Assembly (NCBI GenBank): GCA_016342325.1
Contig: JAEINR010000024.1
Span: 1 to 61,385 of the forward strand
Source of the DNA: Desulfobacterium sp.
Lineage (GTDB): Bacteria; Desulfobacterota; Desulfobacteria; Desulfobacterales; Desulfobacteraceae
Reading direction: 5' to 3'
Length of the DNA: 61,385 bases
Shown here in pieces: positions 5,247 through 60,300 of the stretch. Numbering within the stretch: position 1 is the stretch's first letter; each line of letters begins with the position of its first letter. Both the position numbers and the translations under genes were made by a program. Below the pieces are notes generated by a model. The model was not told the DNA's origin. It searched no databases and worked only from the letters and a program-made list of their open reading frames with translations.

Positions 5247-5654
5247 CTATCTCGTCTCGATCACTGCAAGCCTCTGAACCGCTCTTCTCAATGCGGCCTC
5301 GGCCCTTGCAAAATCGACATCCTCGGCCTTCTTGGCAAGGCGTTCTTCAGCCCTTGCCTTGGCGGCCTTGACGCGGTCGACATCGATATCTTTTCTTCTC
5401 TCTGCAGATTCCGCCAGAACCGTTACCTTGTTTGGCAGCACCTCTGCAAATCCACCGTTAACAAAAATCGCCCTTTCTTTACCTGAGGCGTCCTTGTAGC
5501 GGAGGGTTCCAAGCTTAAGAGAAGTCAGAAAGGTGGTGTGACCGTTCAGGACACCGAACTCACCCTCTGAGCCAGGAGCCATGACAATCTCGGCCTCCTC
5601 GCTGACAACGGATAATCCAGGGGTGACCACTTCAAGAAAAATATTCTCAGCCAT
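5247..5654 (-). CDS. atpC: ATP synthase F1 epsilon subunit
   Basis: This 135-residue central-stalk subunit carries the N-terminal beta-sandwich (LEVVTPGLSVVSEEAE, then GSEGEFGVLNGHTTFLTSL) and an alpha-helical hairpin at the C-terminus rich in Ala, Arg and Glu. Epsilon couples rotation of gamma and the c-ring and can inhibit ATP hydrolysis. It lies 15 nt after atpD and is the last gene before the operon terminator. Length is normal. Confidence 0.95.
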   Translation of the reverse strand: MAENIFLEVVTPGLSVVSEEAEIVMAPGSEGEFGVLNGHTTFLTSLKLGTLRYKDASGKERAIFVNGGFAEVLPNKVTVLAESAERRKDIDVDRVKAAKARAEERLAKKAEDVDFARAEAALRRAVQRLAVIETR

Positions 5655-5669
5655 CGTATACCCCCTGGT

Positions 5670-7088
<1,419 letters not shown>

Positions 7089-7138
7089 TTATTCCTCCTG
7101 TAAAATCTTTTTATATTCTTTTAAGTAAGTCTGATCGA

Positions 7139-8041
7139 TCAGTTCAGGGCCTCGGCACCGCCAACGATATCCATGAGATCTGAAGTGATGCCTGCCTGAC
7201 GCGTCTTATTATAGATGGTCTGCAGTTCATCGATCATGTCCTTGCACGCCTTGGTTGCATTTTCCATGGCTTTCATTCGCTGTGCGTTTTCACTGGTTGA
7301 TGTCTGAAGCAGCCCATCATAGATCTGAATAAAGATGTTCTTGGGAAGCATCTCTCCGAGTAAAGCATCGGATGAAGGCTCGCAGATGTGCTCGGCAAGA
7401 TAAACCGAGTCATCTTTTGCCTTTACATCCTCTTCCCCTGGCTCCTCCATCGCCTCAAGTGAGGGGATGGGAAGAAGCTGCTTTACAACAGGCTCCTGTC
7501 TGGCCAGACTCTTAAAATCAGAATATATAAGATATACCTCGTCGACATCCCCGTCGAGAAACCCGTTGATCAGTTTCTGTCCGGAAGTGGATGCCACGCT
7601 GAAATCGAATTTTCCTCCAACAACACCGATGTACTCATCTTCAATCGCATTGGGGCTTTTCTTGGCCCAATCACGGCCTTTTTTCCCAAAGCAGGTTAGA
7701 GATACCTCTTTGTCCTGGAGTTCCGCATCGATAAATTTTTGGGCCTTTTCAATGAGATTAACATTGAAACCACCGCAGAGTCCCCTGTCGGACGTACAGA
7801 GGATCACGTTGACCTTTTTCACTTCTTCCTTGGCCACAAGAAGGGGACTTGCCTCCTCTCCGGCCTTACCTGCTATACTTCCCAAAACTTCGGAAAACTT
7901 GGACGCATAGGGCATAAACCTGTCCATTTTCTCCTGGGAACCACGCAAACGGGAAGTAGCGACCATCTTCATGGCAGAGGTGATCTGCCGGGTCTTTTTA
8001 ACACTACCTATCTTTAATTGTACTTCCTTTAACGTCGCCAT
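7139..8041 (-). CDS. atpG: ATP synthase F1 gamma subunit
   Basis: This 300-residue rotor-shaft subunit begins with the conserved N-terminal helix (LKEVQLKIGSVKKTRQITSA, then MKMVATSRLR) and ends with the C-terminal helix that inserts into the alpha3beta3 ring (MKAMENATKACKDMIDELQ, then YNKTRQAGIT). A charged stretch near residues 205-222 (EEPGEEDVKAKDD) is a modest insertion in the central Rossmann-like domain. The gene lies between atpA and atpD. Confidence is high. Confidence 0.97.
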   Translation of the reverse strand: MATLKEVQLKIGSVKKTRQITSAMKMVATSRLRGSQEKMDRFMPYASKFSEVLGSIAGKAGEEASPLLVAKEEVKKVNVILCTSDRGLCGGFNVNLIEKAQKFIDAELQDKEVSLTCFGKKGRDWAKKSPNAIEDEYIGVVGGKFDFSVASTSGQKLINGFLDGDVDEVYLIYSDFKSLARQEPVVKQLLPIPSLEAMEEPGEEDVKAKDDSVYLAEHICEPSSDALLGEMLPKNIFIQIYDGLLQTSTSENAQRMKAMENATKACKDMIDELQTIYNKTRQAGITSDLMDIVGGAEALN

Positions 8042-19282: not shown

Positions 19283-21151
19283 CTACATCAAGCTTGCATT
19301 GATGAGCAGGTGAACCAGGATACTGGCCACATAGCCAAGAGCGATCACTGGTGCCCACTTGAGATGGGCGCCAAAGGTGTAAACCCCCCGGGCGGTCCCC
19401 ATGAGGGCTACGCCTGCGGCAGATCCAATGGAAAGCAAACTTCCGCCCACCCCGGCTGTCAGGGTGACCAGCAACCACTGGCCGTGGGACATGACAGGAT
19501 CCATCTTAAGAACGGCAAACATGACCGGGATGTTGTCAACAATGGCAGACAACACACCCACAAGGGAGTTTGCGATTGTAGGCCCAAGGTCTCCGTACAT
19601 GAAGGAGGATACAAGATGGAGATAGCCGAACTGACCCAGACCGCCCACACAAAGGGTTACCCCGTAAAAGAAGAGCAGGGTGTCCCACTCCGCCCGGGAG
19701 ATCCGCTCCATGATGTCGAAGTGTGTCCTTTCGCTCTGGAACTCGTTCACATCCTCGATGGTTTCGATGGCGCCCACCACCTGGCCGCCCTCATCCTTGA
19801 GGGGCGCTGCCGTAAACGACAGCCAAGTTCCCTTGTCGCCGACGTTGGCATAAAAATCGGACACATCATGGGCAGACTCAAGGAAGTTGTTGACCATGTG
19901 CTTACCGTGGTAAAACTTGTCAATCAGGCTTTTTACGCCTTTTTCCAGCACCACATCGGCAAGGGAGGGACGCGCTTCTGAATAAAAGGGTTTCCACTGC
20001 TCCTTTGTCCCGATCCGCTCGTTGGCGGGTACACCGGTCAGTAACTCCATGGCCCTGTTCCAGTGGGTGATCACATGGTCCGTGTTCAGGATAAAAGCCG
20101 CAGTGGGCAGCTCCTCGATCAACTCGGTGATCTGGGCATGGGTCTTGCCCTGGAGGACAGACAGGGAGGTCTTGGCCGTGCTCTTCTTCCTGGCGCCCAG
20201 AATGTTGTCGTAGAAGAGCATGCGCCCTTCTTTGCGTTTAACATGGTAGCTGAAGAACCCGAGGTAACCCAGGCCGAGCATCATGCCGGCTGCCGGGGGA
20301 AGATGGAGAAAATTGTGGAAGCTGACCGCCGTGATAATGGTCAAAATAAAGAGGACGATCATTGCCACGGCCCCGTACTTCATCTCGACCTTCTCATCCA
20401 GCACCTTGGGAATGCTCTTTTCAACGGCAAAGTTCATGCAGATGGCCGGCACCAGCCAGTTGACCAGGGAGGGAAGAAAAATGGCAAAAAACTCATGGAA
20501 GGCCACTTTGCCCTTCTGCCACACCATCAGGGTGGTGATATCGCCAAAGGGGGAGAAGGCGCCGCCGGCATTGGCCGCAACAACGATGTTGATGCACGCC
20601 AGGGCCACAAATTTCTTGTTGTCTCCGCCAACAGCCATGATCACCGTACCCATGAGCAGGGCCGTGGTGAGATTGTCAGCCACAGGTGAGATGAGAAAGG
20701 ACAGAAGACCCGTGATCCAGAACAGCGTCCTGAGGGAAAATCCCTTTGATACGAGATACGCCCTCAACGCCTGGAACACGTTCCGCTCCTCCATGGCATT
20801 GATGTAGGTCATGGCAGCAAGGAGGAAGAGAAACAACTCGGCATACTCCAGCATGCTGTGCTGGATCGCCTGGTGGGCCGTAGTAATGTCCCCGACCTCA
20901 AGATAGGCAAGGGCAACCAGGATCCAGATAAAACCGGCGGCGAGGAGCACGGGCTTACTCTTGCGCAGGTGAATGTTATTTTCAAGGGGCACCAGGGCAT
21001 AGGCACAGACAAAGAGCCCCACACCCAAATAGCCGTAGACGGTTTTTGTAAAATCGATCAATTCTGCATGGACGGTTCCTCCCCCCCCCGAAGCCCAGGC
21101 CAAAACCGGGGCAAGCAACAGGGCAAGGGACACAAAAAGCAATTTCTTCAT
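19283..21151 (-). CDS. nhaD: NhaD-type Na+/H+ antiporter with an inserted PAS domain
   Basis: This 622-residue inner-membrane protein has a cleavable-looking N-terminal signal (residues 1-21), then NhaD/ion-transporter helices with the signatures SPVADNLTTALLMG (155-168), NAGGAFSPFGDITTLMVW (194-211) and SAIVDNIPVMFAV (535-547). Between about residues 339 and 470, after a cytoplasmic-type charged loop, it carries a soluble domain with PAS features: EELPTAAFILNTDHVITHWN at its start and GGQVVGAIETIEDV at its end. The transporter helices resume after it. Ordinary NhaD proteins are about 400-480 residues and lack this. It likely exports Na+ against H+ (or the reverse). Sensing by the PAS domain is inference. 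A 329-nt upstream region holds no clear promoter. Confidence 0.88.
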   Translation of the reverse strand: MKKLLFVSLALLLAPVLAWASGGGGTVHAELIDFTKTVYGYLGVGLFVCAYALVPLENNIHLRKSKPVLLAAGFIWILVALAYLEVGDITTAHQAIQHSMLEYAELFLFLLAAMTYINAMEERNVFQALRAYLVSKGFSLRTLFWITGLLSFLISPVADNLTTALLMGTVIMAVGGDNKKFVALACINIVVAANAGGAFSPFGDITTLMVWQKGKVAFHEFFAIFLPSLVNWLVPAICMNFAVEKSIPKVLDEKVEMKYGAVAMIVLFILTIITAVSFHNFLHLPPAAGMMLGLGYLGFFSYHVKRKEGRMLFYDNILGARKKSTAKTSLSVLQGKTHAQITELIEELPTAAFILNTDHVITHWNRAMELLTGVPANERIGTKEQWKPFYSEARPSLADVVLEKGVKSLIDKFYHGKHMVNNFLESAHDVSDFYANVGDKGTWLSFTAAPLKDEGGQVVGAIETIEDVNEFQSERTHFDIMERISRAEWDTLLFFYGVTLCVGGLGQFGYLHLVSSFMYGDLGPTIANSLVGVLSAIVDNIPVMFAVLKMDPVMSHGQWLLVTLTAGVGGSLLSIGSAAGVALMGTARGVYTFGAHLKWAPVIALGYVASILVHLLINASLM

Positions 21152-22199: not shown

Positions 22200-22682
22200 T
22201 CAGCACTCCTCAAGTGCGGTAATGTCCGGATGACTCTTGACCGACTTCAAGAATTGGATGGTCCGCTGGTCCAATCGTCGCTTCAATACCGTTGCAAGCT
22301 GCTTCATCATCATATAGCCAATGGAATTATCCTCATCCATGAGCTTCCGAACCAAATCCCGGTTGATCACATAGATTTCGGAATCCTCACAGCAGCTGGC
22401 GGTAAGGGCGTTGGATCCCCTGTCAAGGAGAAACGCCCAGCCAAAGGACTCTCCCGGATCAATGGAGTTCACCGTCACTGCGATGGTATTTGATATTTTT
22501 TGTTCAAGCAGGATTTTACCCGATTTCAACATATAGACATTCTGGGCAGCATCCCCCTCCTTATAGATCACCGTGCCCTTTTCAGCCTTGATGACAATGG
22601 TAATGGCCGAAAGCTCATCCAGCATATCATCAGTCAAGTACTCGAGGATTATATTCTTTTTCAACTCATCCCTTGTTACCAT
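22200..22682 (-). CDS. Cyclic-nucleotide-binding-fold protein, no DNA-binding domain
   Basis: This 160-residue cytoplasmic protein consists of a single CRP/PKA-type beta-barrel (YKEGDAAQNVYMLKSGKILL, then GESFGWAFLL) with a helical C-terminus and no helix-turn-helix. The phosphate-binding cassette begins with the expected Gly-Glu, but the usual Arg before Ala/Ser-Thr-Ala is Asn here (RGSNALTAS), so cyclic nucleotide binding is uncertain. It starts 24 nt after the last antiporter gene, with a good ribosome binding site, and is followed by the operon terminator. This suggests it regulates or assembles with the antiporter, which is inference. Confidence 0.82.
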   Translation of the reverse strand: MVTRDELKKNIILEYLTDDMLDELSAITIVIKAEKGTVIYKEGDAAQNVYMLKSGKILLEQKISNTIAVTVNSIDPGESFGWAFLLDRGSNALTASCCEDSEIYVINRDLVRKLMDEDNSIGYMMMKQLATVLKRRLDQRTIQFLKSVKSHPDITALEEC

Positions 22683-22706
22683 GGAGATCCCCCACTCATT
22701 AGAACG

Positions 22707-24479
22707 TTATATGAACACAAAGAGCATCACAATAAAGAGGCCTGCACAGGCGGCAAACAACCCCACGGGCGAAGTCCCGGTTGCAAATGCAGCGTCCAGC
22801 TTCTTTTTAAATATTTCCCGTTTCGGGTATGGATTGTCCTTATTTTTAATAAAGGGGACCACGACCACCCAGGCAAGCCTTGCAGTGGCATCGATGGCCG
22901 CATCGTTCACGGCACCGGTGAACTCCTTGACCAGCAGCCGGTCCACAACCTTGTTCATTCCGTTCAGCAGGGTTGCAAGCCCATTGGACAGGGCCACCAG
23001 CGGCTTCCTGTACAACCAGTCAAAATCAAGGTTAATCGCCCGTATCTCGGCCGGATAAATTCCAGAGAGCAGCAGCAGGGTAAACGCCAGGGCCGAGTAG
23101 AAGAGCAGTTCCGTCTGGGTCACCACATGGGAGAGGGTGTAGGGTTCGTAGAGGGCCGGATAGGGCAGAATGGAATAGAGGGGCTTGTAAAAGGTGCCGT
23201 TGAAGATGCAGAGAAAGGCAGTGATCCCCATGGCAATGAGCATGTGTTTCGGCGCCTCCTTAACCCTGTGGCCGGCATCGTGGCCGAAAAAGGCAAAGAA
23301 CGGGATCTTGATGCCCGCATGGTGGAACACCCCGGCCGAGGCAAAGAGCAGGACCAGCCAGACAGCCACCATATGACCTTCGCCGGCCGCCGACATGACC
23401 ATGGACTTACTCACAAATCCGCTGAAGAAAGGAAAGGCTGATATGGAAGCCGCCCCAACGATGCAAAACCCCGCTGTCCAGGGCATGGATTTATAGAGTC
23501 CCCCGAGATCGGTGGCGTTGATCTTGCCGGTGCGATGGATCACCGCCCCCATGGACATGAAGAGAAGGCCCTTAAAGAGAACATCGTTACAGGCATGGGC
23601 CACGGCCCCGTTCAGGGCAAGCTCGGTCCCGATGCCGATCCCCACCACCATGAACCCCACCTGATTCACGAGACTATAGGCAAGCACCCGCCTCAGATCA
23701 TTCTCGATCACGGCAAAAAAGATGGGAAACGCAGCCATGGCCACCCCGATCCAGATGAGGACCTCGGTTCCGGGATAGGCCCGGGCCAGTGCGTACACCG
23801 CTGTCTTTGTGGTAAAGGCACTCAGGAAGACCGTACCGCCGATGGTGGCTTCGGGATAGGCATCGGTGAGCCAGGTGTGGAGAAACGGCCAGGCACAGTT
23901 GACCCCGAGCCCCATGAAGATAAGCCAGGAGGAAAGGCCGGTGAGGCCGATGTACCCGAAATGGATGGAACCGGTCTCCACCACCATCATGACGATACCG
24001 GCAAGGAGGGTCAACCCCCCGGTCACATGGACCAGCAGATACCGGAATCCGGCTGCGGAAGAGGCCTTGGACCGTCTGGCCCAGATCAACATGACCGACC
24101 CCACGGTCAGGGTTTCCCAGAATACAAAAAAGGTGAAAAGGTCACCGGCAAACACCGCCCCCAGGGCGGCCCCGGAATAGACAAACCCGGCCACATATTC
24201 GAGGCTCTCCTTGACATGGAGAATGTAGATCACCGTCACAAAAGCGGCAATATGAAAAATGTAGCCAAAGGCAAGGCTCAATCGATCGATGCGGACCAAG
24301 GTGAGCTCGTAGTCAAGAAAATTTGCCGTCATCACCGTATCCGTGGGAATGAGCAGCAGGTTGATCAACCCGATCACCGGCAGGGCCACCACGTAAACCG
24401 AGCGGACCCGTCCCCGCAAGAACGGTATCACAAAGGCGCCGAGGATGAAGATCATGAACGGAGGCAGAACAGCATTCAT
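22707..24479 (-). CDS. Mrp/NuoM-type proton-translocating membrane subunit (third copy)
   Basis: This 590-residue subunit of the NuoL/M/N-MrpA/D antiporter family has about 14 helices. The key Glu-containing helix (FFVFWETLTVGSVMLIWAR) and the Lys-containing region (FTTKTAVYALARA) are visible, as is HACNDVLFKGLLFMSMG. Beyond the core it has a C-terminal extension (about residues 440-590) with amphipathic and extra membrane segments. It would carry ion flux in the Mrp/MBH-like complex. It starts 30 nt after a small membrane protein gene, with AAGGAG upstream. Confidence 0.88.
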   Translation of the reverse strand: MNAVLPPFMIFILGAFVIPFLRGRVRSVYVVALPVIGLINLLLIPTDTVMTANFLDYELTLVRIDRLSLAFGYIFHIAAFVTVIYILHVKESLEYVAGFVYSGAALGAVFAGDLFTFFVFWETLTVGSVMLIWARRSKASSAAGFRYLLVHVTGGLTLLAGIVMMVVETGSIHFGYIGLTGLSSWLIFMGLGVNCAWPFLHTWLTDAYPEATIGGTVFLSAFTTKTAVYALARAYPGTEVLIWIGVAMAAFPIFFAVIENDLRRVLAYSLVNQVGFMVVGIGIGTELALNGAVAHACNDVLFKGLLFMSMGAVIHRTGKINATDLGGLYKSMPWTAGFCIVGAASISAFPFFSGFVSKSMVMSAAGEGHMVAVWLVLLFASAGVFHHAGIKIPFFAFFGHDAGHRVKEAPKHMLIAMGITAFLCIFNGTFYKPLYSILPYPALYEPYTLSHVVTQTELLFYSALAFTLLLLSGIYPAEIRAINLDFDWLYRKPLVALSNGLATLLNGMNKVVDRLLVKEFTGAVNDAAIDATARLAWVVVVPFIKNKDNPYPKREIFKKKLDAAFATGTSPVGLFAACAGLFIVMLFVFI

Positions 24480-24509
24480 AACAGGTCTCCTTTATGGCAA
24501 AACAAAAAT

Positions 24510-24758
24510 TCAGTCATAGTAATCCTCCTTTCTCTTTACCAGGGGGCGCAGCACAAATCGGGATACCAGCACCAGGATCACACAGGCGACAAATCCGAAA
24601 ATGGCGTAGAACACCGGCCAGTTCTCCCAGGGGAAATGGGCGTGCTTGTGCACAAAAAAATCAAGGACAAACAGCAGAATTACCGAACTGAAAAAGATGA
24701 TGAGCAACCGCTTCACATTTTCAGGTTTGTCAAACAGGTGAGTTTTTTCTTTTTCCAT
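24510..24758 (-). CDS. Small two-helix membrane protein in the Mrp cluster
   Basis: This 82-residue protein has two hydrophobic helices (about 18-35 and 48-68) joined by a loop with HKHAHFPWENWPVF and a charged C-terminus (RPLVKRKEDYYD). I cannot match it to a named Mrp subunit, but its position between two antiporter subunits on the same strand with short gaps implies it is an accessory component. Function is unknown. Confidence 0.75.
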   Translation of the reverse strand: MEKEKTHLFDKPENVKRLLIIFFSSVILLFVLDFFVHKHAHFPWENWPVFYAIFGFVACVILVLVSRFVLRPLVKRKEDYYD

Positions 24759-24780
24759 GACCTAGGACCTTTTTCCTTGT

Positions 24781-24900
24781 CTATAAAGAGCTTATGAATA
24801 CCACGGCAAGGTAGAGAACGCTTGCCGCAAACACCACCAGAAACACCGGCTTATACCCTGGGACAGGGTCATGGGACAACTCTTGTTTCTCCTCGTTCAT
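24781..24900 (-). CDS. Small single-helix membrane protein in the Mrp cluster
   Basis: This predicted 39-residue protein (MNEEKQELSHDPVPGYKPVF, then a membrane helix VVFAASVLYLAVVFI) starts 6 nt beyond the end of the preceding antiporter gene. The ATG at 24900 has GGAGGG 8 nt upstream. A longer frame extends upstream but only overlaps the previous gene out of frame. Its pattern, a short cytoplasmic tail plus one helix, is seen in small accessory subunits of membrane complexes. No family is recognised. Confidence 0.65.
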   Translation of the reverse strand: MNEEKQELSHDPVPGYKPVFLVVFAASVLYLAVVFISSL

Positions 24901-24905
24901 GGGCA

Positions 24906-26390
24906 TTACCCTCCATTGATAGATTGTACTGCAAGCTTGGCAAGATTCAAGAACGGCTGGGGATAGAAAAAGAGAACCATGGAGATGCCGGCGGTGATGG
25001 TCAGGGGCACCACACACCAGATGGGCGCCTCCTCCACCCGGTTTTCAAAGGTCATCTCCGGGTCGCTCAGAAAAAACGCATTATAAAATACGGGAAAGAA
25101 ATAGGCGGCATTGAGAAAGGAGCTGCCAAGCAGCACCAGGAGCAACAGCATCTGCCCCGATTCAATGGTGCCCATCACAAGGTACCACTTGCTGATAAAG
25201 CCCCCGCCCGGGGGAAGCCCCACCACGGAAAGGGAACCGATCAGAAAAGCGGTCATGGTGATGGGCATCTGCCGGCCGATCCCCTTCATCTGGCTGATAT
25301 TCTTGATCCCAGTGGCGCAAAAGATGGCGCCGGCACAGAAAAACAGGGTAATTTTACCAAAGGCATGCATGGCGATATGGAGCATGCCGCCGGTCATGCC
25401 GGAAGCGGACAGAAGCCCGATACCCAGGACGATATAGGAGAGCTGGCCAATGGTTGAAAAGGCCAAACGTCGCTTGAGTTCATCCTGGGACAGCGCTATC
25501 AGGGAGGCGACCACCACGGTTATGGAGGCGATGGCACAGATGATTCCGTTAATGTGAAACGTGGCAAGGGTGTCCACCCCCACAATGCCGGTAAAAACCC
25601 GGACCACACTGAAAGCCCCCACCTTGACCACGGCAACGGCATGGAGCAAAGCGCTCACCGGCGTGGGCGCCACCATGGCGGCAGGCAGCCAGGAGTGCAT
25701 AGGCATGATGCCCACCTTGGCAAACCCGAACAGGAACATCAGGGAAAGTACCAGGGCCAGGCCGGAATTGATATGGCCTGCCATGACCCCGTGGGCGGCA
25801 AAATCAAGGGTGCCGGTAAAATGATAGGTGATCAGCATGGCCGGAAGGGCAAGGCCGATGGAGCCGCCAAGGATGTAGAAAAGGTATTTCCGGCCGCTGG
25901 TTCTGGCGCTGCGGTCCTGGTGATGGGTGACCAGGGGATAGGTGGCAAGGGAAAGCATCTCATAAAAGAGGTAGAGGGTCAGCAGATTCGCGGAAAAGGC
26001 AACCCCGATGGTTGCAGACAGGGCCACGGCAAAAAAGGAATAGTACCGGGTCTGACTGTGCTCGTCCAGGCTGCGCATATACCCCAGGGAGTATATGGAG
26101 GTAACGATCCAGAGGGAGGAGGCCACAAGGGCGAAGAGCATGCCAAAGGCATCCACCCGGAAGGCGATCCCAAGATCGGGAAAAATCTGGACCACGGTGT
26201 ATTCAATGACCTTGCCCTTCAAGACCAGGGGAAGCATGGAAAGCACCAGGAGAAATTTGATCGTCCCCGCAATAAAGGTCCATGACTCCCGCAGGTTCTG
26301 GTTCCGGGAAACAACAATGAACGGAATGACGACCAGGGATACGAGAACTGCAAGAAACGGTTTAACAGAGAGCACGGTTTCCATTGTCAT
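24906..26390 (-). CDS. mrpD: Mrp/NuoM-type proton-translocating membrane subunit (second copy)
   Basis: This 494-residue MrpD/NuoM-family protein shows NLLTLYLFYEMLSLATYPLV (the conserved Glu helix), FGFAKVGIMPMHSWLPAAMV (Lys helix), APTPVSALLHAVAVVKVGAF, and GLPPGGGFISKWYLV near the C-terminus. This is the most canonical of the three copies. The start at 26390 has AGGGG about 9 nt upstream and follows the previous stop by one base. A longer upstream frame overlaps the previous gene and is not supported. It would form one ion channel of the complex. Confidence 0.9.
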   Translation of the reverse strand: MTMETVLSVKPFLAVLVSLVVIPFIVVSRNQNLRESWTFIAGTIKFLLVLSMLPLVLKGKVIEYTVVQIFPDLGIAFRVDAFGMLFALVASSLWIVTSIYSLGYMRSLDEHSQTRYYSFFAVALSATIGVAFSANLLTLYLFYEMLSLATYPLVTHHQDRSARTSGRKYLFYILGGSIGLALPAMLITYHFTGTLDFAAHGVMAGHINSGLALVLSLMFLFGFAKVGIMPMHSWLPAAMVAPTPVSALLHAVAVVKVGAFSVVRVFTGIVGVDTLATFHINGIICAIASITVVVASLIALSQDELKRRLAFSTIGQLSYIVLGIGLLSASGMTGGMLHIAMHAFGKITLFFCAGAIFCATGIKNISQMKGIGRQMPITMTAFLIGSLSVVGLPPGGGFISKWYLVMGTIESGQMLLLLVLLGSSFLNAAYFFPVFYNAFFLSDPEMTFENRVEEAPIWCVVPLTITAGISMVLFFYPQPFLNLAKLAVQSINGG

Positions 26391-26391
26391 T

Positions 26392-27906
26392 TTAGATAAC
26401 CCCTGCAGGTATGGCAAAGTGAATGATGTTCGTGACGATCCTACCCGAATAGATCCCCAGCACCAGAAGCATGATAGACACAAAAAGGAACGGCACCAGC
26501 ATGGCCATGGGCGCCTCCTGGATCACGGCGCCTGCCCCCCCGTGGCCACCCCCGTCATCTGAACCGTGGTGGTGATCGATAAAGGGCTCAAAATAGGAGA
26601 TCTCGAACAATCGAAAAAAGAGCACCGCATTGACAAGGGAAGAGAAGAGCAAGGCCGCGACAAACGCATATTGGCCTGCGGCAATTCCCCCGGACACGAG
26701 ATACCACTTGCTAAAGAACCCGCAGGTGGGCGGCACCCCGATGATGGAGAGACCGGCCAGCACAAATCCCGCCATGGTAAAGGGCATTGAACCAAAGAGC
26801 CCCTTAAGATCCCCCCTCTCCTCAGAGCCTGTTTTCCAGAGAAAAATCCCCGCTGCCATGAACAGGCAGAGGGTCATCACGGCGTCGTTGACGATATGGA
26901 GAATGGCGCCGGACATGCCCATGCGGTTGCCAAGGAAAAAACCGCCCACCATGTACCCCACCTCTGCAATAATGATGTAGGTGAGCATTTTCTTGTAATC
27001 GGTCTGGGCTAGGGCAGACAGGGAACCGAACACGATGGTTGCGATGGCCACCCACACCAGGAAATCACTGACGTTGAGTTGATGAAACGTGTAGTCCACC
27101 GAAAAGAGATTGAGGCAGATCCGCACCATTATATAGACGGTCACCTTGGTGGTCAACGGCGCAATGAGCCCTGCCGCCGCAGAAGAGGACTGGGAATAGG
27201 CCCCGGGCAGCCATCCATGGACCGGAAAGAGGGCCATTTTTACAAACAGGCCGGAAAGCATGATGATAAAGGCAAAGAGGACGATGCCGGAGTCCTTCAT
27301 CCCTGGAAGAATGGCTGCAAGATCCGCCATGTTCAAGGACCCTGTGGCAATATAAAGATACCCCACCCCAAGGAGGTAGAAGGTCGCGCCAATAGTACCG
27401 AGAAAGAGATAGTTCAGGGTCGCAAGGGGCGCCCGTGCCTTTCCAAGCCCGATGAGGGCGTAGCCGGACAGGGATGCGATCTCCAGCAGCACATAGAGAT
27501 TAAAGGCGTCCCCGGTGGCCGTCATTCCGATAAGTCCTGCGGTGAACAGCACATAAAGGGAGATAAACGCCCCCTCCTTATCCGCGAACTCCCGATGGAT
27601 GGTCTGCTTGCTCGAGACAAGATTCACAAGGGACACCGCAGTGATCACCACCAGCACCAGGGCGCTTAAGTGGTCGATCACATAGACGATCCCCATGGGA
27701 GCGGCCCAGCCGGCAAACCGATACTCAATGGCAAGTCCGGTGTTGACCACCTGAACCAGGAGGGCGGCGGCCCCGAGAAACGAAACGGACAAGGCGGCAA
27801 CCGCAACGGGAAAGCAGGCCCGCTTGTCAATGAAACCGGCTGCCGCGACCATTAGGGCCGCAAGAAGGGGAACGATGATGACCAGTGCAGGAAGTGTATT
27901 GACCAT
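26392..27906 (-). CDS. mrpD: Mrp antiporter subunit D (first copy)
   Basis: This 504-residue multi-pass subunit has the MrpD/NuoM/NuoN signatures GDAFNLYVLLEIASLSGYAL (Glu helix), FVKMALFPVHGWLPGAYSQS (Lys helix), and GVPPTCGFFSKWYLVSGG. A His-rich loop (DHHHGSDDGGGHGGAG) near residues 444-459 may bind metal or be a flexible insert. It follows mrpC by 4 nt, with a GGAGGGG ribosome binding site. Confidence 0.9.
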   Translation of the reverse strand: MVNTLPALVIIVPLLAALMVAAAGFIDKRACFPVAVAALSVSFLGAAALLVQVVNTGLAIEYRFAGWAAPMGIVYVIDHLSALVLVVITAVSLVNLVSSKQTIHREFADKEGAFISLYVLFTAGLIGMTATGDAFNLYVLLEIASLSGYALIGLGKARAPLATLNYLFLGTIGATFYLLGVGYLYIATGSLNMADLAAILPGMKDSGIVLFAFIIMLSGLFVKMALFPVHGWLPGAYSQSSSAAAGLIAPLTTKVTVYIMVRICLNLFSVDYTFHQLNVSDFLVWVAIATIVFGSLSALAQTDYKKMLTYIIIAEVGYMVGGFFLGNRMGMSGAILHIVNDAVMTLCLFMAAGIFLWKTGSEERGDLKGLFGSMPFTMAGFVLAGLSIIGVPPTCGFFSKWYLVSGGIAAGQYAFVAALLFSSLVNAVLFFRLFEISYFEPFIDHHHGSDDGGGHGGAGAVIQEAPMAMLVPFLFVSIMLLVLGIYSGRIVTNIIHFAIPAGVI

Positions 27907-27910
27907 GGGC

Positions 27911-28339
27911 CTATCCCCTCCGTAAACGTTGGTTTATCTCATTTTCCTCAAGGGTGCCATACTCCTTGTAGACCTTTATCGCCAGGGCAAGGGCAACACC
28001 GAGGGTGGCAACGCCAACCACGATGGCGGTGAGCATGAGCACATGGGGAAGCGGATTGATATAATTGACGGCTTGTACGGCATCGGTGCCGTGGCGTAAC
28101 GCCGCATGGGCAATACCACCGCCCTCCGGGACCGGACCATGGCGCAGGATGGGAATGGTGGCCCCCTGTTTCGCCCCGATGGAGACATAAAAGAGGATCA
28201 CGGCGGTCTGGAAGATGCTCATGCCGACAATTTTCTTTACCAGATTGTTCTTGGCAATCATGGCATAGAGGCCCACCATCATCAAAATGATGTAGGCCCA
28301 GTAATTCGCCCGGGAGATCAACACGGTTAAAAAGTCCAT
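27911..28339 (-). CDS. mrpC: Mrp antiporter subunit C (NuoK-like)
   Basis: This 142-residue protein has three helices with the NuoK/MrpC pattern (IVGMSIFQTAVILFYVSIG and PHVLMLTAIVVGVATLGVAL). A loop between helices 2 and 3 (GATIPILRHGPVPEGGGIAH and following) is longer than in NuoK, as is usual for MbhG/MrpC. The start is next to the preceding stop, with GAGGGG 6 nt upstream. Confidence 0.92.
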   Translation of the reverse strand: MDFLTVLISRANYWAYIILMMVGLYAMIAKNNLVKKIVGMSIFQTAVILFYVSIGAKQGATIPILRHGPVPEGGGIAHAALRHGTDAVQAVNYINPLPHVLMLTAIVVGVATLGVALALAIKVYKEYGTLEENEINQRLRRG

Positions 28340-29167
28340 TTAAAGCCCCTCATCCTGTTTGCCTGCCGAAGACAGGTTGTAGTAAATCCAGATCATCACC
28401 GACATGACGGCAAGGGCAACCCCGATCTCAACGATGAGTATCCCGTGGGACCGGGCCATGACCCTGTCCGTCCCCAGGAGAGGTGCAAGCGCCCCGTAGT
28501 TGAGGAAATTTTCGCCAAGCATGACACAAAGGGCGCCGGTGCCCGCGTAGATGAATACACCGGCAGCGCTCATGATGGCGGCACTGGTCTCACTGATCTT
28601 GGCCACGGTGGTCCTCAGGTTATGGGAGATGGCAAAGAGAATCACCGCAGCCCCCAAAATAACCCCCCCCTGGAACCCGCCCCCGGGACTGTGGTGGCCG
28701 TGGGCGACCACATAGAGGGCAAATATCTGGATAAAGGGCATGAGCAGCCGACTGGTGCTTCGGATAATGATATCCCGGGGCACCCACTGGGCATCAATGC
28801 GCTGGAACACATCGGAATCCTCCGGGGCCGCCCCGCACTCTTCGATGCGGATGGTGACGCCGGTGGGGACATGGCGAAAGTAGATCTCCTTTTCCTCCTC
28901 TTCAGGCAGACGAAGAAGGAAAAAGCAGGCAAGGCCCGCCGTGAGAATCACCGTGGTTTCGAACATGGTGTCATACCCCCTGTAATCGGCAAGCACCGAG
29001 GTCACCATGTTGGGCACAGCGGTATCGGCCATGGTGTGCTCAATATAATAGGGAGAGAGATGGGTAGACGCCGGGGAGTGGGGATCCCCGAATTCGGGAA
29101 ACTTATTCGCAAAGACGATGAGAAGTATCCCGCACAGCAGAATGGTCATTTTTCCGATGAGTTTCAA
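28340..29167 (-). CDS. mrpB: MbhE-like and MrpB fused subunit
   Basis: This 275-residue membrane protein joins an N-terminal MbhE-like part (residues 1-90, with VLADYRGYDTMFETTVILTA) to a C-terminal MnhB/MrpB domain (about 135-265, with HGHHSPGGGFQGGVILGAAV and SHGILIVEIGVALAVM). The start is TTG at 29167, overlapping the previous stop as TTGA, and has GGAGGA at good spacing. In Mrp systems the MbhE-like part is usually the end of MrpA, so this is a rearranged module typical of MBH-type clusters. Confidence 0.88.
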   Translation of the reverse strand: MKLIGKMTILLCGILLIVFANKFPEFGDPHSPASTHLSPYYIEHTMADTAVPNMVTSVLADYRGYDTMFETTVILTAGLACFFLLRLPEEEEKEIYFRHVPTGVTIRIEECGAAPEDSDVFQRIDAQWVPRDIIIRSTSRLLMPFIQIFALYVVAHGHHSPGGGFQGGVILGAAVILFAISHNLRTTVAKISETSAAIMSAAGVFIYAGTGALCVMLGENFLNYGALAPLLGTDRVMARSHGILIVEIGVALAVMSVMIWIYYNLSSAGKQDEGL

Positions 29168-36634: not shown

Positions 36635-38826
36635 TGGCACAGCGCCTGAACATGAAAAAAGGCAGGTCCCTGAGAACCGATTTCATCCTGGCCCTCTGCC
36701 TGACCACCGTGATCGCCCTGGCCATCACCCTGTTCTTCAACTATTTTTTTGTCTACTCCAAGAACATGGCAGCGCTTCAAAAAAGTTCGGAGACCAAGGT
36801 GGCCAAGGCCGTGGAAACCCTGAAACAACCCTTGTGGCTCTACGACGTAAGCTTTGTAAACATCTATGCGGAGATACTTGCCACCGACTCAAGTCTGGTC
36901 CATGTTTCCATCTATGACGAGCGGGACAGGCCCCTGGCAACGATAACCAACCAGGCGCGCGCCGAGCCCGACCGTGACATAACGTGGCGCCTGGAACGCA
37001 CCATCCAGCTGAAAAACCGGCAGGTCGGCCGCCTGGTCATGGAGTTCACCAACGCCGACATACGAACCTTGACCCGGAAGATGATGCTCTCCAACACCAT
37101 CATCATGCTGATCATCCTCTTGTCCGTACTTGCCATCACCTGGATGCTGATGACCCGGCAAATCCTCTCCCCCCTGAAGATCATGGAAAAAAACTTCCAC
37201 AGGATCTCGGCCGGTGACTACTCCCGGCGGGCGCCCCTTGAAAAAAACAACGAACTGACCCGCATCTCCGAAGAATTTAACACCATGGTCAGGCAGGTTC
37301 AGCTGAGGGAGGAGAAGATAAGGGAGAGCGAGGTCAAATACCGGAACCTGGTGGAGAGCTCATCGGATATCATCTTCAAGACAGACATAGGGGGCGATCT
37401 TGTGTTCATCAACAGCAATTTCAGCCAATGGACCGGTTTTGACCCCAAGGAATTCATCGGCAAACCCTTTTCCATCCTCTTTTCCAAAGAATCCCCGTCC
37501 ATGGATCCCACGGCCTTCATGCAGAACCCGGTGCCGGGCAATCCGACCCTCTGGGAACTTGCACTTGTCAAAAACCAAGGAGGGACCATCCCCATTGAGC
37601 TGAGCATCTCCGTCCAACTGGACCTGAACAACCATCCCCTAGGCACCACCGGCATCGCCCGGGACATCACCGAACGAAAGACCCTTGAATCAAAGCTCCA
37701 GCAGAGCCAGAAGATGGAGGCCATCGGCACCTTTGCAGGGGGCATCGCCCACGATTTCAACAACATCATCGGCGGCATCCTCGGCTATGCCGAGATGATC
37801 GAAATGTTTGACGCCAGGGAGAATGACAAACTCAAATCAAAGATTGACCATGTACTGAAAGGCACCCACCGGGCCAGGGATCTCATCGAACAGATCCTGA
37901 CCTTCAGCCGGCATTCGGATCAGAAGAAACGCCCCTTGAACCTCGGCCCCCTGATCAAGGACGGTCTGAAGTTCCTGCGGGCCTCCATCCCCTCCACCAT
38001 CAAGATCAAGGAGGGCATTTCCGGCCACCCCTGTGCGGTGTGGGCCAACGAGACCGCCATCCACCAGATCCTGATGAACCTTTGCAGCAACGCCGCCGAT
38101 GCCATGAAGGCGTCCGGGGGAACCCTCACCGTGGCCCTGGCCGAAGAACGGCCGGCAAAGGCATCCATGGTGGCAGACAAGGACCCGGGCCATGGGGTGA
38201 CCCTCACCGTGTCAGACACGGGCGAGGGAATTGATGCCGGCATCCGGGAGAGGATCTTCGACCCCTTTTTCACCACCAAGGGCACCGGTGACGGAACCGG
38301 CATGGGGCTCTCCGTTGTACACGGCATTGTCAAGGAGCTCAACGGAACCATTACGGTCAACAGCGACCCGGGCAAGGGCAGCAGCTTCAAGGTGACCCTT
38401 CCCGGACTCGATCATGGGATAGCGGATGAAAAAGAGAGCGCCCCCCCAGCCATGGTGACCACCGGTAAAGGGAAAATTCTCTTCATCGACGACGAAGAGG
38501 AGCTGGTGAGCTTCAGCAGGGAACTTCTGGAGCAGACAGGATATCAGGTGGTGGGAACCACGAGCAGCGTCCATGCCCGCCACCTTTTTTTAAAGGATCC
38601 CATGGCCTTCGACCTGGTGGTCACCGACCAGACCATGCCGAACATCACGGGATTTGACCTGGCAATGGAATTTCTCGAAACCTGCCCGGATATCCCCATT
38701 GTCCTGTGCACCGGCTTCAGCATGCCGGACCTTGAGAAACAGGCCCTGGCCGCAGGAATCCGCGCCTTTGCAAAAAAACCCCTGGGCGCCCGCCGGCTGA
38801 TTGATCTTGTCGAGCAGATGATGTAA
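36634..38826 (+). CDS. Hybrid histidine kinase (HAMP-PAS-HisKA-HATPase-REC)
   Basis: This 730-residue inner-membrane sensor has helix 1 at about 17-41, a periplasmic region of roughly 110 residues, helix 2 at about 152-173, HAMP at about 172-225, and PAS at about 235-350. The phospho-acceptor His (about 373) lies in IAHDFNNIIGGI, followed by an ATPase with SDTGEGI and GTGMGLSVVHG. A C-terminal receiver has acceptor Asp about 665 in VVTDQTMP. It is coupled to the binding-protein gene and followed by an NtrC-type regulator, forming a probable two-component pair. The ligand is presumably an amine. Confidence 0.93.
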   Translation: MAQRLNMKKGRSLRTDFILALCLTTVIALAITLFFNYFFVYSKNMAALQKSSETKVAKAVETLKQPLWLYDVSFVNIYAEILATDSSLVHVSIYDERDRPLATITNQARAEPDRDITWRLERTIQLKNRQVGRLVMEFTNADIRTLTRKMMLSNTIIMLIILLSVLAITWMLMTRQILSPLKIMEKNFHRISAGDYSRRAPLEKNNELTRISEEFNTMVRQVQLREEKIRESEVKYRNLVESSSDIIFKTDIGGDLVFINSNFSQWTGFDPKEFIGKPFSILFSKESPSMDPTAFMQNPVPGNPTLWELALVKNQGGTIPIELSISVQLDLNNHPLGTTGIARDITERKTLESKLQQSQKMEAIGTFAGGIAHDFNNIIGGILGYAEMIEMFDARENDKLKSKIDHVLKGTHRARDLIEQILTFSRHSDQKKRPLNLGPLIKDGLKFLRASIPSTIKIKEGISGHPCAVWANETAIHQILMNLCSNAADAMKASGGTLTVALAEERPAKASMVADKDPGHGVTLTVSDTGEGIDAGIRERIFDPFFTTKGTGDGTGMGLSVVHGIVKELNGTITVNSDPGKGSSFKVTLPGLDHGIADEKESAPPAMVTTGKGKILFIDDEEELVSFSRELLEQTGYQVVGTTSSVHARHLFLKDPMAFDLVVTDQTMPNITGFDLAMEFLETCPDIPIVLCTGFSMPDLEKQALAAGIRAFAKKPLGARRLIDLVEQMM

Positions 38827-57388: not shown

Positions 57389-60300
57389 TTGACGAAAAAC
57401 AAACTTTCATTTAAAGAGAATGCATCGCCGAATCAACAATTACAACAGAAAAACCATCCCATTAAAATTCTGATTGCCGATGATGACCCCGCGATTCATG
57501 ACGTCACCCGTTTTGCACTTTCCGATTTTAAATACAACGGCAGGCCGATCGAACTTTTAAGTGCGTTCAGCGGTATTGAAACGATTGAAACCGTAAAGCG
57601 ATATCCGGATATCTCTTTAATTTTGCTTGATGTGGTCATGGACAATGAAACAGACGGACTGGATGCCGTAAAAAAAATCCGGGAAAAATTAAAAAACCGA
57701 TTCATCCGAATTGTCCTGAGAACCGGTCAGCCCGGCACAATGCCCCAGACGGAAATCATCCGAAACTATGATATCAACGACTATGTTTCAAAAACAGAAT
57801 TGACCAGTACCCGACTGTTTACCATCATGTACAGCTCCCTGAGGACCTACGACGATATGATTCGGCTCGACAGAGCCCGGTTGAAAGTGATCCAGGTTCA
57901 GCAGAGCATGGAAAAAAAGGTAAACCAGCATAAAGACTGGTATCAAAACGTGCCGGTAATGATCCATTCCATCAACAAAACCGGACACCTTGTGGATGTA
58001 AACAGGCAATGGCTGGCAACAATGGGGTACCGGCGGGAGGAAGTCATCGGGGAACTTTCATATGACTTTTTAACAGAAGCGTCCAGGATGTATGCAAAGA
58101 CCAAAGGATTTCCAGAATTTTGGAGAAAAGGCATCGTTGTGGATATTCCCTACCAGATGATCACCAAAACCGGCGAAAAAATTGACGTATTGCTGTCTGC
58201 AACGATGGAGCGGGATAATATCTCGGGGGGACAGAACTCGGTTGCGGTCATCAAGGAGGTAACGCAACAGCGATTGGCCGAACAGGCCCTTAAAACAAGC
58301 GAGCAGCGGCTCAGCCTGGCTGTCCAGGGAGGGAACCTGGGCTTCTGGGACTGGGATATGATAAAGGGTATCGTCACTTATAACGACCGATGGGCGGACA
58401 TCATCGGGTATACGCTTGATGAAATCGAACAAACCTATGAAACCTGGGAAAAACGCATTCATCCGGAGGACAGAAAAAGAATTGAAGAAAAGCTGACCGG
58501 ACACATTCAGGGCCGGTATCCTTTTTTTGAAGGTGAACACCGACTGAAGACAAAAACCGGTGCCTGGCGGTGGATTTCCGGCATTGGTAAGATCAGCCAG
58601 ATGGATCCCGAGGGTAATCCCGGCCGGATAACGGGAGTCATGATTGATATTGATCAGCGAAAACAGGCTGAAAATCTTTTGGCTGAATCAGAAAAGCGCT
58701 TTCGTAATGTCGCCCTCACATCCGGTGACTGGATTTGGGAGCTCAATAAAGACGGCCGGTATACCTATGCCTCTCAAAGTGTCAAAAACATCCTGGGATA
58801 TGATCCGGAGGAACTTCTTGATAAAACACCCTTTGATTTGATGATACCGGGTGAGACTGAAAACGTCCGGAAAAAATTCCTGTCACTGACCAGTAAAAAA
58901 GCACCGATTATCGATCTTGAGAACTGGAACCTGACAAAGGACGGCCGCTCTGTATGCCTTCAGACCAACGGTGTCCCCCTGGTTGGAGCCGACGGTGAAC
59001 TTAATGGATATTTTGGCGTTGACAAAGACATCACTGTTCAGAAAAATAACCAGCAGGAAATCGAACAAACAGTTGGTGAGCTGACAGCCCTGAATCGAAT
59101 GGGCAGGGAAATCAATTCCGAACTGGCCCTCGGCAGTGTCCTGGAAAAAGCCATGATCCCAATTGCCGAGGCGATTCAGCCTGCCATCGCCCTGATTCTT
59201 CTCCCCCAGGACGACCAATTGACTGTCCGCCAAACCTATTCCTTTGATACGACGGTTCTGGATACAAATGATACAGAAATCTTGGCCGTCTGCAGTGCCA
59301 TTTCCAAAGAGGTCTATGAAAAACAAACAGCGCTTTTCACATCGGATATTGCAGCTTCAAGGTGGGTGGTTTCAAAAAACATTGAACCGCCTATCCGTGG
59401 ATTTGGTGCCATTCCGCTAGTCATCAACCAAAAACCCATCGGGGTGATGGCGATAGGGTGCCTAACTCCGAGACGGTTTGACAAGCGCCGTGATTTCCTC
59501 TTCTCAATAGCAGATCTTTTGGCTGCAGGAATAAACAACTCCTTCTTGCATGAACAGATTCAACGCTATGCCGGTGAACTGAAAAAAAGAGTAGAATTGC
59601 GCACCCTTGAATTGACCCGTACAAACAGACAGTTAATAAAAGAGATTGAAGATAGAAAGGCAATGGCCCTTGAACTGGAAAAAAGTGAGGACATGCTCAA
59701 TAGTACGGGTGCCATGGCCAGGGTTGGCGGGTGGGAATTGAACCTATTGAAAAATGAATTGATCTGGACCCGGACCGTCTTCGAAATTCACCAGGTTGGT
59801 CCGGAGTACACCCCTCAGATCGAAACGGCCATAAAGTTCCATGTGCCGGGTGATAGAAAAAAGATCCGGAATTTAATACATCTTTGTCAAAGCCGGGGAA
59901 TCCCGTGGGACGAAGAGTTTGAGATTGTCACGGCCAAAGGCAACCACCGATGGGTCAGGAGTAAAGGGGAACCGGTCTACCTTGATGGACGGGTATCAAA
60001 AGTCATCGGGTCATTCCAGGATATCAGCGATCGAAAAAAAGCCGACAAGGACCTGATGCTGGCCAAGGAGGAGGCAGAAAAGGCCAACAGCGCAAAAACT
60101 GATTTTCTTGCCCGAATGAGTCACGAGATCCGGACCCCGATGAATGCCATTATAAATTTGACTGAATTTCTGTTCGACACCGGCCTTAAAAGGGAGCAGG
60201 CAGATTACCTGAATATCGTCAAACAATCCGGTCATCATCTTTTAAGTATCATCAACGACATTCTCGATCTATCAAAAATCGAATCGGGCAAGATGGTCCT

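Follow-up and report, generated by a model that had tools for sequence, protein, structure and literature searches.

A predicted PAS domain within the membrane domain of an NhaD-family Na+/H+ antiporter from Desulfobacterales

Results

Gene content and transporter family

The window, meaning the whole 61,385-nucleotide stretch of the Desulfobacterium sp. contig that was analysed, includes a gene in which the two parts of an NhaD-type transporter are separated by a predicted PAS domain (hereafter PAS-NhaD). The gene, its parts, and the adjoining upstream genes are:

19283..21151 (-): PAS-NhaD gene, 622 amino acids, ATG start, ORF intact
20231..21040 (-): first part of NhaD, predicted helices of residues 38–307 (NF038006 positions 1–252 at 20213–20968; AlphaFold2 helices)
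20141..20230 (-): N-side linker, residues 308–337, starting at Glu308-Gly309 (predicted structure and alignment)
19727..20140 (-): predicted PAS domain, residues 338–475 (Pfam PAS_4, PAS, and PAS_9; predicted fold; Foldseek)
19697..19738 (-): C-side linker, residues 472–485, mostly of low confidence, reaching to the next membrane helix and overlapping, at its start, the PAS helix at 469–475
19301..19696 (-): second part of NhaD, predicted helices of residues 486–617 (NF038006 positions 275–405 at 19331–19723; AlphaFold2 helices)
19679..19684 (-): Asp490-Thr491 of the EWDT motif (alignments; position in Vibrio homologues)
22200-29167: Mrp/MBH-like antiporter set (MnhB, a 4L-like protein, three Proton_antipo_M), then a protein with a cNMP-binding domain, adjoining PAS-NhaD upstream (Pfam)

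The NCBI curated model NF038006 (NhaD_1) matched the 622-residue ORF at 586.7 bits (cut-off, 80) in two stretches, with model positions 1–252 before the insert and 275–405 after it, and Pfam CitMHS (PF03600) also matched (131.3 bits). PAS-NhaD missed the cut-off of TIGR00775 (426.6 vs. 577.1 bits), as did all four plain NhaD proteins compared with it, a Vibrio homologue (L096, 550.2 bits) and three plain relatives (421.5, 431.1, and 443 bits). TIGR00775 thus sets a stricter limit than the family drawn by NF038006, and the assignment was kept on NF038006. Judged from its sequence, the product is a member of the NhaD-type Na+/H+ antiporter family and would be expected to carry out antiport. By the same model it shares this family with the NhaD (TC 2.A.62) of Vibrio and Halomonas. 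In the comparison, which covered Vibrio and Motilimonas sequences, the EWDT and hairpin motifs are kept, and four Vibrio and Motilimonas loci, among the best 80 of 579 relatives, were 57–58% identical over the best segment. The same genome also possesses a paralogue with no insert (L003, G000:C186:14503-15906), which is 74% and 79% identical to the PAS form over the two membrane parts.

The whole-chain AlphaFold2 model, built from 38 aligned sequences (alignment A1), had a mean pLDDT of 78.5 and a pTM of 0.66. With this model, Foldseek returned ArsB (E = 6e-7, TM-score by query 0.52), an MLEN-METQ integrative model (E = 9e-7), and also Pho90, NaS1, and VcINDY (TM-score 0.39 for VcINDY), with E-values of 6e-7 to 4e-5 and TM-scores of 0.39–0.52 for ArsB, Pho90, NaS1, and VcINDY. 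The carrier matches were modest overall (TM-score 0.34–0.52 by query length), in part because the insert is counted in the query length. A search of solved structures by sequence (P0001) gave best E-values of only 0.26 and 0.99. The membrane part is thus predicted by the model to have the fold of the Ion Transport superfamily (INDY/ArsB), and the predicted structure of Halomonas NhaD1 is likewise said to resemble VcINDY in the review PMC9408914.

Position of the insert in the membrane domain

Two inverted repeats can be read off the predicted helices and motifs. Following the INDY-fold topology, which we take as the guide for assigning repeats, residues 38–240 would form the first repeat and residues 261–617 the second, and SPVADN (155–160) and AIVDN (536–540) make up a motif pair marking the two hairpins. 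The first part of NhaD would then comprise the whole first repeat and the two helices that open the second repeat, with the PAS domain separating the second helix of that repeat from the third. Lys or Arg occurs in most of the loops predicted to face inside (HLRKSK 61–66, KRKEGR 305–310), and the Lys/Arg-rich HVKRKEGR adjoins the insert, which together with the helix count fits an inside-facing loop. One short loop with two Lys (213–217) lies on the predicted outside, contrary to the positive-inside reading. On balance, the PAS side is probably cytosolic.

The insert enters at the same place in all PAS-bearing proteins collected (positions 312–329 of the plain NhaD profile in 44/44), with an extra segment of 129–149 residues by profile search. 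The same loop in plain NhaD is short and hypervariable; where plain NhaD of the Vibrio and Halomonas type has this short variable loop, PAS-NhaD has a PAS domain of about 130 residues. Gly309, at the junction of the membrane helix and the PAS linker, was present in 44 of 44 PAS-bearing proteins vs. 1 of 75 plain ones. Since both linkers were predicted with low confidence (pLDDT <50 at residues 310–327, 472–478, and 481–485), a rigid coupling path is not visible in the model.

The EWDT motif residues Asp490-Thr491 occur 15 residues past the end of the PAS domain and are invariant in alignment A1. An Asp-Thr pair is described as crucial, under other numbering, in Halomonas elongata NhaD (in a part of PMC1552076), and the title of a work cited in PMC9408914 calls Asp344 and Thr345 critical in V. 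cholerae NhaD. Because the motif Asp is residue 347 in two Vibrio homologues of 480 amino acids, counted from the chosen Met, Asp490-Thr491 was taken as the probable equivalent of Asp344-Thr345.

Identity and predicted fold of the insert

Pfam was run on a 157-residue piece containing the insert and on the whole chain. For the piece, three models exceeded their cut-offs (PAS_4, 37.4 bits, cut-off 23.1, E = 3.3e-9; PAS, 35.8 bits, cut-off 22.6; PAS_9, 32.1 bits, cut-off 27.0), while PAS_8 was just under (20.8 vs. 21.8 bits); on the whole chain the same three still passed (32.6, 30.6, and 27.5 bits). The sensory-box model TIGR00229 was below its cut-off (16.8 vs. 22.9). In the predicted structure, two strands (351–356, 361–364) and four helices (366–372, 376–379, 397–402, 406–413) precede a short strand (418–420) and three further strands (428–434, 442–452, 458–467), in overall PAS order, with a last PAS helix at residues 469–475. 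Modelled alone, the domain had the same elements (pLDDT 80.9, pTM 0.78), though three of the five models were poor (46.8, 45.3, and 42.7).

Foldseek matched the insert within the whole chain to DosP, LOV proteins, and NifL, and the domain alone to DosP, an RNA-binding LOV receptor, NifL, and EAG1 (TM-score by query 0.50–0.61). By sequence, the best solved structure for the domain alone was a sensor protein (3a0r, E = 0.028), and a profile of 32 PAS domains matched phytochrome B (7e-12), then phytochrome A, CitA, DosP, and others. Both within the chain and alone, the insert is thus predicted to be a PAS domain, with a five-stranded sheet and helices in PAS order.

These results bear out the central claim of an earlier note on this DNA, that a PAS domain is embedded in an NhaD antiporter: three Pfam PAS models pass, and the predicted PAS fold lies between the two NF038006 stretches. 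The residues given there for the insert, 339–470 (19742-20137), fall inside the predicted domain 338–475, both quoted stretches (EELPTAAFILNTDHVITHWN and GAIETIEDV) are present in the ORF, and NhaD helices do resume after the insert (NF038006 275–405; predicted helices 486–617). The computational checks that it proposed, a search against PAS models (PAS_4, PAS, and PAS_9 over cut-off), structure prediction on the whole chain (a PAS fold for the insert), and a search for other NhaD proteins with the same insert (44 distinct PAS-bearing proteins collected), came out in favour of this architecture. Elsewhere in the window, two long ORFs on the plus strand (743 and 1313 amino acids) contain further PAS domains, at 37339-37668 and 57944-59032.

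Distribution of PAS-bearing and plain NhaD

Among 389 genomes drawn from the Desulfobacterales, 50 contained a match with E ≤ 1e-60, and 36 of the 389 encoded at least one full-length PAS-NhaD. With up to three candidates scored per genome in the order, class, and phylum draws, gene counts are lower bounds, and the order draw gave at least 42 full-length PAS-NhaD rows vs. at least about 16 plain genes (E = 1e-60 or better). Matches in the class-wide draw were confined to genomes of the same order. A phylum draw of 395 genomes contained 17 with a strong NhaD match; in the 16 besides that of the window the NhaD match was in one piece or in two separate pieces, with PAS between the pieces in none. 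Among plasmid records (tblastn), 24 had a match and none covered 80% of the query.

A profile search over the collected ORFs yielded 121 distinct matches, two of which were set aside as partial, leaving 44 distinct PAS-bearing and 75 plain NhaD, the plain set being a sample because the relatives included were the best 80 of 579. The earlier note had taken it as family knowledge that NhaD normally lacks such an insert; this fits the 75 plain NhaD sampled but fails within the order, where at least 42 insert-bearing rows stand against at least about 16 plain ones. Among the best 80 of 579 relatives, the named insert-bearing loci (L056–L069 and L084) came from Desulfobacterium sp., Desulfobacula, Desulfosarcina widdelii, D. 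alkanivorans, Desulfofustis, and metagenome-assembled genomes of Desulfobacterales and Deltaproteobacteria. The gene is found on the complete chromosomes of Desulfosarcina widdelii and D. alkanivorans, and it is carried by Desulfofustis glycolicus DSM 9705 (Desulfofustis belongs to the order Desulfobulbales).

The assembly behind the window is a draft of 205 contigs, where a chimeric contig or frame error might produce such a gene, but the same architecture in many independent assemblies, including the two complete chromosomes and D. glycolicus DSM 9705, refutes this explanation. The occurrence in 36 of 389 genomes, the complete chromosomes, and a PAS dN/dS of 0.07–0.24 together show that the architecture is not an assembly accident.

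Several individual copies were irregular. A PAS-NhaD on a contig labelled Spirochaetes (L066, QKCL01000081) grouped with copies from Desulfofustis and others from the order, reflecting either horizontal transfer or a misbinned contig. Two same-score copies in opposite orientation on a 10-kb contig (G038:C105:2644-4488 and 5639-7483) are probably an assembly palindrome. Copies with in-frame stops or in pieces (G296:C63:106807-108594 and G387:C251:15736-17514, one G296 copy with an in-frame TAA) represent either decaying genes or sequence errors.

Origin, loss, and constraint

In a wide tree of the membrane parts (119 rows), one starred clade united all 44 PAS-bearing proteins with 13 plain paralogues from Desulfobacteraceae. 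A more careful tree of 60 rows consisted of 41 of the 44 PAS-bearing proteins, the 13 plain Desulfobacteraceae, and six hand-chosen plain outgroup rows; L137, L067, and L066 were omitted as long or doubtful, and the other 56 plain rows were used only in the 119-row tree. In the best 60-row tree the 13 plain Desulfobacteraceae NhaD, including the paralogue in the genome of the window, were nested within the PAS-bearing proteins, and thus the PAS domain may have been lost once. The alternative in which the PAS proteins form one clade was not rejected (p-AU = 0.088). The trees suggest, short of deciding it, one gain of the PAS domain and one loss with the gene retained. In an unrooted tree of the PAS domains, all 44 NhaD inserts lay on one side of a branch with support of 100/99, opposite 18 other PAS domains.

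For eight pairs of proteins, dN/dS was 0.07–0.24 in the PAS domain and 0.05–0.13 in the membrane core; dN was higher in the PAS domain in 8/8 pairs and dN/dS in 7/8. The faster evolution of the PAS domain than of the core, the hypervariable loop of plain NhaD, and the possible loss in one clade would suit a tolerated passenger with no function, but the domain is in frame in 44 distinct proteins, keeps conserved PAS residues, and has the low dN/dS given above in all eight pairs, such that a passenger is very improbable.

The same PAS subtype in other proteins

A PAS search in 58 genomes of the order found, besides NhaD, open frames of 424–1924 residues. A frame was picked for 42 loci (four gave none, and some loci repeat each other), of which 38 had at most one hydrophobic stretch and 15 had a kinase ATP-site motif; only four had six or more hydrophobic stretches, namely three PAS-NhaD and L020. 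Kinase identity was based on the ATP-site motif search and one Pfam run on the kinase near NhaD in L160. The PAS domains at L020–L035 were 36–44% identical to the insert over the PAS domain, with the pattern THWN..GT..QW.PF..AD..Y.G, and the 18 other PAS domains compared with the inserts came from 15 of these 16 loci. They share the subtype, but their output is a kinase, or unassigned in L020, and they are on the other side of the PAS tree. L020 (607-2088) encodes a membrane protein that has some six hydrophobic stretches and carries this subtype in its C-terminal part; the kinase motif was not found in it, possibly another non-kinase use of the subtype. In the genome of the window, generic PAS domains are plentiful (127 matches), and no other match to the insert subtype was found at 1e-12.

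Nine residues were invariant in the 44 aligned inserts (W364, N365, G381, T382, W386, F389, D399, Y414, and G460), and H363, at the end of strand B, was present in 42 of 44 (Gln in L045, Arg in L137). Apart from W364 (17/18), all of these residues were likewise unchanged throughout the 18 other PAS domains; because the motif [TS]H[WF]N was used to choose the 18, their agreement in the THWN-like motif carries no weight as evidence.

Dimer formation and the binding of other proteins are common among PAS domains, and the insert could be an assembly or docking module that senses nothing, holding the dimer together or binding a partner such as a PAS-bearing kinase. A case of this kind is the E. coli kinase DcuS, which, according to a passage of PMC3892338, needs its cytosolic PAS domain to interact with the carrier DctA, and in L160 a histidine kinase with a related PAS domain is encoded near the antiporter gene. 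However, the residues invariant across 44 inserts and 18 other PAS domains suggest a specialised core and not a surface alone, and the genome of the window is without another match to the subtype at E = 1e-12; a pure docking role is considered unlikely, though less so than the other rival explanations.

Candidate signal

None of the recognised cofactor signatures looked for was present in the 44 aligned inserts. For the photoactive Cys of flavin-binding LOV domains, there was no column with Cys in at least 30% of inserts, and 28 of 44 were without any Cys in the aligned segment; the c-type haem motif CxxCH occurred in 0/44. The hallmark of haem PAS domains is a conserved axial His in the F helix, as in FixL and DosP, and here the commonest His columns were 413 (17/44) and 418 (15/44). 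Searches of solved structures with the PAS domain found no close relative having a known ligand, and thus a cofactor could not be transferred. The suggestion of the earlier note that the domain might respond to light, gas, or redox is therefore left without positive evidence, as neither a Cys nor an F-helix His is widely shared and CxxCH does not occur. The preferred guess is a small molecule bound in a polar pocket.

Gene neighbourhood

Neighbouring genes were compared across 31 neighbourhoods of unequal length (about 8–24.5 kb; in L163, ORF picking dropped NhaD itself), with Pfam run on the window genes and on single representatives. Downstream of PAS-NhaD in the window are an LD-carboxypeptidase and a gene with a beta-lactamase fold (Pfam). 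Five of the 31 had an Mrp/MBH-like cluster near PAS-NhaD, in varying arrangements; ten had a gene judged by eye to be transglycosylase-like, and three had a SulP sulfate permease. No neighbour was conserved throughout the 31, and for this reason context was not used as evidence for the signal. One of the SulP permeases (L058:8936-11116, (-), 727 codons) has its Pfam match split in two stretches and, on inspection by eye, roughly 140 additional residues that look soluble; that of L156 is of similar length.

Two-component or sigma-54 genes occurred near some copies (cluster 5 in 5/31, cluster 12 in 4/31). Together with the location of the PAS domain beside a transport helix, these are compatible with a transceptor, in which transport or ion occupancy would alter the PAS domain and the PAS domain would report to a separate signalling protein. 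Against this, the protein has no output domain, and none of the regulators recurs throughout the 31 neighbourhoods, which differ in length (the two clusters reaching 5/31 and 4/31), making this arrangement quite improbable.

Discussion

Regulatory domains fused to carriers are known, and what appears new here is that a Na+/H+ antiporter has a sensor domain set into one of its membrane repeats, in one bacterial lineage; no description of a PAS domain in NhaD was found among the open-access PMC papers listed. Closest at hand are three CitMHS/DASS-like carriers of the same genome (L167–L169, of which two lie near each other on contig C167), which match the same PF03600 and contain an internal TrkA_C (RCK_C) soluble domain of regulatory type, setting a precedent for inserted domains in the superfamily. 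They have TrkA_C instead of PAS and, reading their sequences, it appears to sit one loop earlier, between the repeats, whereas the PAS domain would be inside the second repeat; hhalign of NhaD against a TrkA_C carrier gave no usable alignment, so the TrkA_C position comes from sequence reading only.

In EAG and hERG K+ channels a PAS domain is likewise coupled to an ion-conducting membrane protein, and the EAG PAS domain was among the Foldseek matches, but there it is N-terminal on a channel whose membrane part is unrelated in fold. An EAG structure entry is titled as the PAS domain in complex with a cNMP-binding-homology domain, unlike PAS-NhaD. Among MFS carriers, fusions to PAS, cNMP-binding, or UspA domains are described with functions called possible, the fused domains being usually C-terminal, and no UspA fusion is given as characterised in transporter regulation, in the review PMC10710835. 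PAS-NhaD resembles these in joining PAS to a secondary carrier and differs in that PAS lies within the membrane domain and the carrier is of another superfamily.

The interpretation favoured here, and judged somewhat more probable than all others together, is that PAS-NhaD is an INDY-fold NhaD antiporter whose cytosolic PAS domain, set in the second repeat, senses a signal or partner and directly changes transporter activity. The PAS domain would sense an intracellular small molecule, a condition, or a partner protein and would change antiporter activity in cis, with no separate signalling protein. The route might be an effect on the next helix, in which the essential Asp-Thr pair lies, or a change in the antiporter dimer; the antiport activity, the dimer, the ligand, and the sign and route of control are all presumed in this scheme. 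The proposal of the earlier note that the sensor gates ion flux without a separate protein holds to the extent that control in cis is the most economical function, with gating itself presumed, and does not extend to any particular signal.

A more specific version, that of a ligand-gated antiporter, is a tentative possibility on which we would not yet rely: a PAS subtype belonging to the histidine kinases of the order would have been acquired once into the membrane repeat, so that a metabolic signal read by kinases in related species directly sets Na+/H+ exchange in these sulfate reducers, and the plain paralogue in the same cell would provide unregulated exchange.

The mechanism of regulatory domains fused to carriers has seldom been tested. 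The occurrence of PAS-bearing and plain NhaD in one genome (at the 74% and 79% identity noted above) constitutes a natural control, which makes control of an INDY-fold ion exchanger by a soluble sensor directly testable. If the PAS domain does regulate in cis, the architecture suggests that the cell could switch an ion exchanger directly. Sodium cycling is linked to the uptake of sulfate and to energy conservation in marine sulfate reducers, and such an antiporter switch would therefore lie at the heart of their energetics.
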